A DNA stretch of 39,026 bases, taken from positions 1 through 39,026 of the forward strand of contig SLND01000073.1 in the NCBI GenBank assembly GCA_007133205.1, given 5' to 3'. Source of the stretch: Natronospiraceae bacterium (GTDB lineage: Bacteria; Pseudomonadota; Gammaproteobacteria; Natronospirales; Natronospiraceae). Both the position numbers and the translations under genes were made by a program. Of the stretch, positions 11,671 through 11,907 are shown one piece after another. How positions within the stretch are numbered: position 1 is the stretch's first letter; the number at the start of each line of letters is the position of its first letter. Under the pieces are notes generated by a model. That model was not told the DNA's origin. It searched no databases and worked only from the letters and a program-made list of their open reading frames with translations.

Positions 11671-11907
11671 GGACCCTTCGTTGGCGGTGACGGGGGACTG
11701 CCCGTTCAGGTCTCGAATGCGCGTTCAGCAAGCACGGCTCAGGTGACCATCCAAAGAGCAGGCCTTGGTGCGGTCAGGGTGTTCCAGGACTGTGTGCGCC
11801 ATGGATGGCGCACACAGAGCCCCCATGGAAGGGTTCACGGCGTTCCTGGAACACCCTGACGGCACCACAAGGCCGGAACGCCCCCCGTCACCGCTAACGA
11901 AGGGTCC
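11671..11907. repeat. Nested triple inverted-repeat element between convergent genes
   Basis: Outer IR 11671-11696/11882-11907 (25/26), middle IR 11761-11789/11844-11874 (17-bp perfect core gtcagggtgttccagga), central hairpin 11790-11817 (ctgtgtgcgcca-tgga-tggcgcacacag, 12-bp perfect arms). Confidence 0.9.

Follow-up and report, generated by a model that had tools for sequence, protein, structure and literature searches.

The 237-nt palindromic element described here, which lies between two convergent genes of a Natronospiraceae genome, is probably a non-autonomous dispersed repeat of conserved structure that spreads by way of its folded single strand, through an enzyme whose gene our searches did not find. 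We hold the identity of the element with more confidence than this joint statement, and the enzymatic step with less. Copies are dispersed through the host genome and its relatives, their fold is conserved, many stand as inverted doublets, and the alignment of the copy studied here with such doublets displays the geometry of an internal deletion.

The element and its copies

By 'the window' we mean the whole stretch of DNA that was analysed, 39,026 nt in length. Within it the element occupies 237 of the 283 nt between two convergent stops (Table 1), in keeping with the original prediction of an element that fills a convergent intergenic gap. All three inverted repeats of that prediction are present: outer arms of 26 nt matched at 25 positions, middle arms of 24 nt matched at 23 that include a perfect core of 17 bp, and inner arms at 11790-11802 and 11805-11817. 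The single centre ascribed to them is inexact, since the outer, middle and inner repeats are centred at 11789, 11816.5 and 11803.5, respectively; the centres differ because hairpin B follows hairpin A on its 3' side and the middle stem has a 5' insert to its left. As RNA the element had been expected to fold into a very long hairpin from either direction, and folding of the two strands agrees (-163 and -165 kcal/mol; z -12.1 and -12.5), with none of 200 shuffles folding as well.

Table 1. Positions of the element, its parts and the flanking genes in the window
Feature	Position	Strand	Basis or remark
Alpha/beta hydrolase (PF12146)	ends 11634		gene flanking the element
Whole 237-bp element, short form (apparently an internally deleted inverted doublet)	11671-11907	+	end-to-end alignment with L002 and L004
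Left outer arm, GGACCCTTCGTTGGCGGTGACGGGGG	11671-11696	+	inverted-repeat comparison and arm motif count
5' insert/side branch, with deletion junction near 11713 relative to the doublet form	11697-11763	+	alignment to doublet copies
Three-way-junction module (103 nt)	11764-11866	+	covariance model R1, 87.4 bits, E 7e-20
Module outer stem, 5' arm	11766-11789	+	pairs with 11844-11867
Hairpin A, 11-bp stem, loop AUGGAU at 11801-11806	11790-11817	+	arms and fold
Hairpin B, GCC-CCC / GGG-UUCAC-GGC, loop AUGGAA at 11825-11830	11819-11841	+	fold and covariation
Module outer stem, 3' arm	11844-11867	+	pairs with 11766-11789
Right outer arm	11882-11907	+	inverted-repeat comparison and arm motif count
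HAD hydrolase (PF00702)	ends 11918	-	other flanking gene

When the host MAG (2.07 Mb in 194 contigs, 84% complete) was searched at the DNA level, 68 pieces matched; we read these as about 35 loci after removal of the palindrome's self-matches. Three genomes of the same family also carry the element, one of them with 29 matches, and the same kind of search in 34 more distant relatives gave a single 27-nt match. A dispersed palindromic repeat had been predicted, with a single copy as the contrary outcome, and the roughly 35 loci together with the copies in relatives bear the prediction out. The window element aligns end to end with two other copies of the host genome (L002 and L004) at 81-82%, and the DNA flanking the copies is unrelated from one to the next.

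The outer arms belong to the repeat. Their motif occurs 23 times in the host MAG and its reversed control not once, and the arms were found only at the spacing of the element, in a MAG that is fragmented and whose contigs are broken by repeats. Since both outer arms are present in five or more dispersed copies 233-237 bp long, the arms travel with the inner part; longer forms of 359-423 bp have the same ends as the short form, and the outer arms are common to at least nine copies. The same distal arm motif, GGCGGTGACGGGGGGCGTTCCGG, is found in an element of a Natronospira MAG (L121), which hints that the host may be related to Natronospira.

With genes called by a simple ORF model, 19 of the 32 placed copies in the host family lie in convergent gaps and one in a divergent gap. 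This placement, the position of the element between two convergent stops and the very stable fold of both strands would suit a bidirectional gene-end structure, either a terminator or a stabiliser of mRNA 3' ends for both convergent genes. Elsewhere, however, convergent placement by the same simple gene calls differs little from background (27 of 92 copies, against 66 of 265 gaps), and a terminator needs neither conserved loops nor a three-way junction. An intrinsic terminator was rejected, since the window has no T-tract and none of 123 related copies has a T5 in the 25 nt next to the stem, and we hold the gene-end reading as a whole to be improbable. The arms that travel with the inner part, and the missing T-tract, also argue against the earlier suggestion of a mobile element inserted in a terminator.

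A three-way-junction module conserved in structure

In the plus-strand fold the core of the element is a module in which a long outer stem surrounds two hairpins with A-N-GGA loops (Table 1). In a set of 32 sequences, all from other genera, standard pairs fill 93% of pair cells, and both sides have changed at 32 of 36 pairs, as they have at all 23 pairs of the module outer stem. The covariation score of this set is 0.904, against 0.217 when shuffled and at most 0.18 when the partners are slid; the host family alone scores 0.512 against 0.157. A further set, retrieved with the model and fitted to it, has both-sided changes at 33 of 36 pairs. The stem of hairpin B is matched in 125 of 126 pattern hits, though the pattern permitted mismatched combinations. 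While the stems vary, the A-N-GGA loop is kept in 47 of 47 model hits in hairpin B and in 43 of 47 in hairpin A, counts that owe something to the search pattern and the model. Hairpin A loops of the host family often read CAGGAUG or CAGGACG, and other copies, such as L010, have AUGGAU in both hairpin loops. That the sequence changes almost freely while the fold and the two A-N-GGA loops are kept suggests that something recognises the fold.

The outer stems also differ between strands. Core-pattern hits, under symmetric scoring, have 157 G-U against 39 A-C combinations in the outer stem and the 32-sequence set has 40 against 9, model-selected sets favouring G-U by construction; the host family has no such asymmetry in its small counts (2 against 6). 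The excess of G-U over A-C suggests that it is the plus strand that folds, as RNA or as ssDNA. Template switching corrects palindromes, and this process could explain the matched arms but not the strand asymmetry; a palindrome-correcting mutation process could also yield part of the covariation without selection. At one Xanthomonas locus (T_G039 215986, compared with its orthologues in G041 and G042) hairpin B has been swapped as a block between nearly identical flanks, from TCC..GGA TTCAC to TAC..GTA CTTGC, which suggests conversion between copies.

Several copies on contigs of genome G000 (C3, L020; C155, L021; C157, L019; and partly C88, L018) have a common insertion of about 100-145 nt at one point in hairpin B. 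It holds further hairpins, one of them with an AUGGAU or ACGGAU loop (GGGCGCAC-ATGGAT-GTGCGCCC).

Distribution across the Gammaproteobacteria

A degenerate 27-nt core pattern matched at least 116 stretches of named genomes, with Xanthomonas, Microbulbifer, Marinobacter, Alcanivorax, Methylotuvimicrobium, Arenimonas, Pantoea, Alteromonas, Shewanella and others among the matches listed. All lineage-naming titles among those listed are gammaproteobacterial save that of one 3.3-kb contig labelled Patescibacteria (L138), which carries the core motif and may be misbinned gammaproteobacterial DNA. The outer stems of the core-pattern matches are long (median 28 bp ungapped), and their sequence differs among genera.

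A covariance model, R1, was built from other genera with no host-genome sequence in it and recognises the window copy (Table 1). It matches 51 of 275 genomes of the class and 45 of 220 genera, and in many of the matched genomes the copies scored are a lower bound. In a sample of the phylum, whose share of other classes is not stated, all 29 matched genomes of 299 are Gammaproteobacteria. Copies are dense in Xanthomonas, with 108 in 1.38 Mb, or about 78 per Mb. The original prediction had likened the element to repeats of halophilic gammaproteobacteria; the core is indeed widespread in the class, but its range, which takes in Xanthomonas for example, is wider than 'halophilic'. Carriage by phages or plasmids was rejected, as an exact core match was absent from 2.9 million viral contigs and blastn gave no match in phage and plasmid collections.

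In several Xanthomonas species (L103, L183 and relatives) heptamer repeats of the GATTCCC type adjoin the element. One paper reportedly deals with a G-rich repeat that is enriched in this genus.

Inverted doublets and the origin of the nesting

In the same 1.38 Mb of Xanthomonas, 87 of the 108 copies are clustered and 49 of 53 neighbours are inverted, with spacings that group near 57, 136 and 192 nt. Copies in the sister genus are likewise inverted doublets, of 420-540 bp, and doublets are present at L033, L039 and L043. The window copy is itself single, and it matches both halves of a doublet: positions 54-237 of the element match L043 242-423 directly, positions 115-237 match L043 123-1 in inverted orientation, and positions 1-42 match the left end of L043. 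L033 and L039 give the same two-half pattern. The junction lies near 11713, with 11671-11712 matching the left arm of L043 and L033 and the sequence from 11714 onward matching the right half of L013 and L033.

Since it matches both halves, one of them inverted, the window copy resembles a doublet from which one module is missing at about 11713. A doublet would have lost one module and kept its left distal arm, which would then pair with the right one around the single module that is left; the nested appearance arises because the distal arms of both halves pair around that remaining module. We infer the direction, from doublet to short form. At least five dispersed copies have the short form, which may itself have spread or may have been ancestral.

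Other arrangements occur. At one locus (L345, G456:C1:94421-95646) six module copies all point the same way and recur about every 228 bp, forming a tandem array where inverted doublets are the rule. Near the orthologue of L103, a duplication of the element or of half of it is found at one and the same site in two Xanthomonas species (G041:C1 and G046:C6).

Proposed mobility

The copies would spread, in the manner of REPINs, through an enzyme that recognises the folded single strand, either ssDNA at replication or RNA, and the host would tolerate them mostly near the 3' ends of genes. That the copies keep to no one orientation with respect to genes, as called with the simple ORF model, accords with this reading. 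The original prediction had offered a RAYT-mobilised, REPIN-like element, and of this the layout stands: like REPINs and BIMEs, the copies are dispersed intergenic palindromes with inverted doublets and alternating arrays. The mobiliser does not. A Y1_Tnp gene is absent from the host MAG (84% complete), the class-wide comparison over 275 genomes gave no association (39/51 against 146/224, Fisher p 0.14), and 12 R1-positive genomes lack Y1_Tnp, five of them with 13-14 scored copies. The element contains no GTAG tetranucleotide, and its unit, of about 100 nt with three helices, is larger than the 20-40 nt hairpin of a REP. We therefore rejected a RAYT/IS200 link, on the missing gene and the lack of class-wide association, and consider a RAYT-mobilised REPIN in the strict sense highly improbable.

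Short length, lack of coding capacity, many copies and 26-nt terminal inverted arms recall MITEs, from which the element differs in having a conserved internal fold, no target duplication and no cognate transposase that we could find. Target-site duplications had been proposed as a check, and nine copies gave repeats of 0-4 nt, the same as mixed flanks. Xanthomonas species differ in which copies are present, but no clean empty site with ends at the element ends was seen among them; the differences span larger intergenic blocks, and at one site (G045) unrelated DNA replaces the element. The CGTC-tagged REPs offer a precedent for palindromic repeats that stand in doublets and lack a dedicated transposase; they differ in being single hairpins of 8-9 bp with a CGTC tag, mainly in Alphaproteobacteria (PMC3733652).

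TwoAYGGAY and the question of RNA function

The nearest Rfam family is the TwoAYGGAY RNA motif (RF01731), listed in Weinberg et al., 2010 (PMC2864571). Both have a variable outer stem around two hairpins with GGA loops and are multi-copy in Gammaproteobacteria, RF01731 hits elsewhere being multi-copy too, with inverted neighbours in several genomes; the host element differs by its 26-bp outer arms and 5' insert. The window copy scores 36.8 bits (E 3.4e-4), under the gathering cut-off of 43, and its loop A fits AYGGAY while loop B lacks the final Y. Because of this score and the missed position in loop B we do not file it under TwoAYGGAY, yet it resembles a member in its looks and in how it would work. 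One locus (L305) is recognised by both models (RF01731, 55 bits, above cut-off; R1, 71.3 bits), the other RF01731 hits tested with R1 scored weakly or not at all, and 18 loci with strong R1-type elements have no gathering-level RF01731 match. Likenesses to miRNA families, Ysr224 and sX4 in Rfam fell far below their cut-offs and were treated as chance resemblance to a long hairpin.

The loops invite a reading in which the element acts as RNA, the two A-N-GGA loops bind CsrA/RsmA, and the copies serve as decoys or as sites at mRNA 3' ends; we regard it as unlikely. The site reported for CsrA/RsmA is A(N)GGA within a hairpin loop (PMC4066749; PMC3937308), and CsrA binding was proposed earlier for TwoAYGGAY on motif grounds (PMC4333381). 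The retention of A-N-GGA while stems vary fits, although the search pattern and the model partly select for it, and so do the CAGGAUG and CAGGACG loops of the host family. The plus-strand asymmetry also fits, but the orientation of copies to genes, called with the simple ORF model, is inconsistent (21 co-directional against 34 opposite), and the gap in the window has no promoter-like site. CsrB/RsmZ-type sRNAs share the loop motif; the element differs in being dispersed in many copies with no promoter or terminator seen, and its hundreds of copies resemble amplification more than a tuned sponge. The csrA gene is present in the three same-family relatives and was not found in the host MAG (84% complete), an absence that we dropped as a refutation because the relatives carry the gene and the MAG is incomplete.

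Xanthomonas, which has many copies, is a genus in which no rsmB homologue had been identified according to PMC3937308, and this too would fit. On a broader version of the CsrA reading, transcribed copies would jointly form distributed CsrA/RsmA sites, so that a selfish repeat would double as a genome-wide decoy and, in Xanthomonas, would be a candidate for the missing antagonists; this seems to us more improbable still.

Implications

The motif is already in Rfam, and what is new, as far as our literature search reached, is a class-wide family of dispersed repeats with doublets. The search found no such description; its coverage of subscription journals was slight, and an earlier one is possible. 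Reading the element as a dispersed repeat of conserved structure links an orphan Rfam motif to abundant, class-wide dispersed repeats with extreme structural covariation. The family has lineage-specific arms and BIME-like doublets, yet no RAYT link, and it raises two questions: which agent mobilises the repeats, and which one reads the pair of conserved A-N-GGA loops. Finally, the short form illustrates that the deletion of one module from an inverted doublet can by itself create a 'nested palindrome'.
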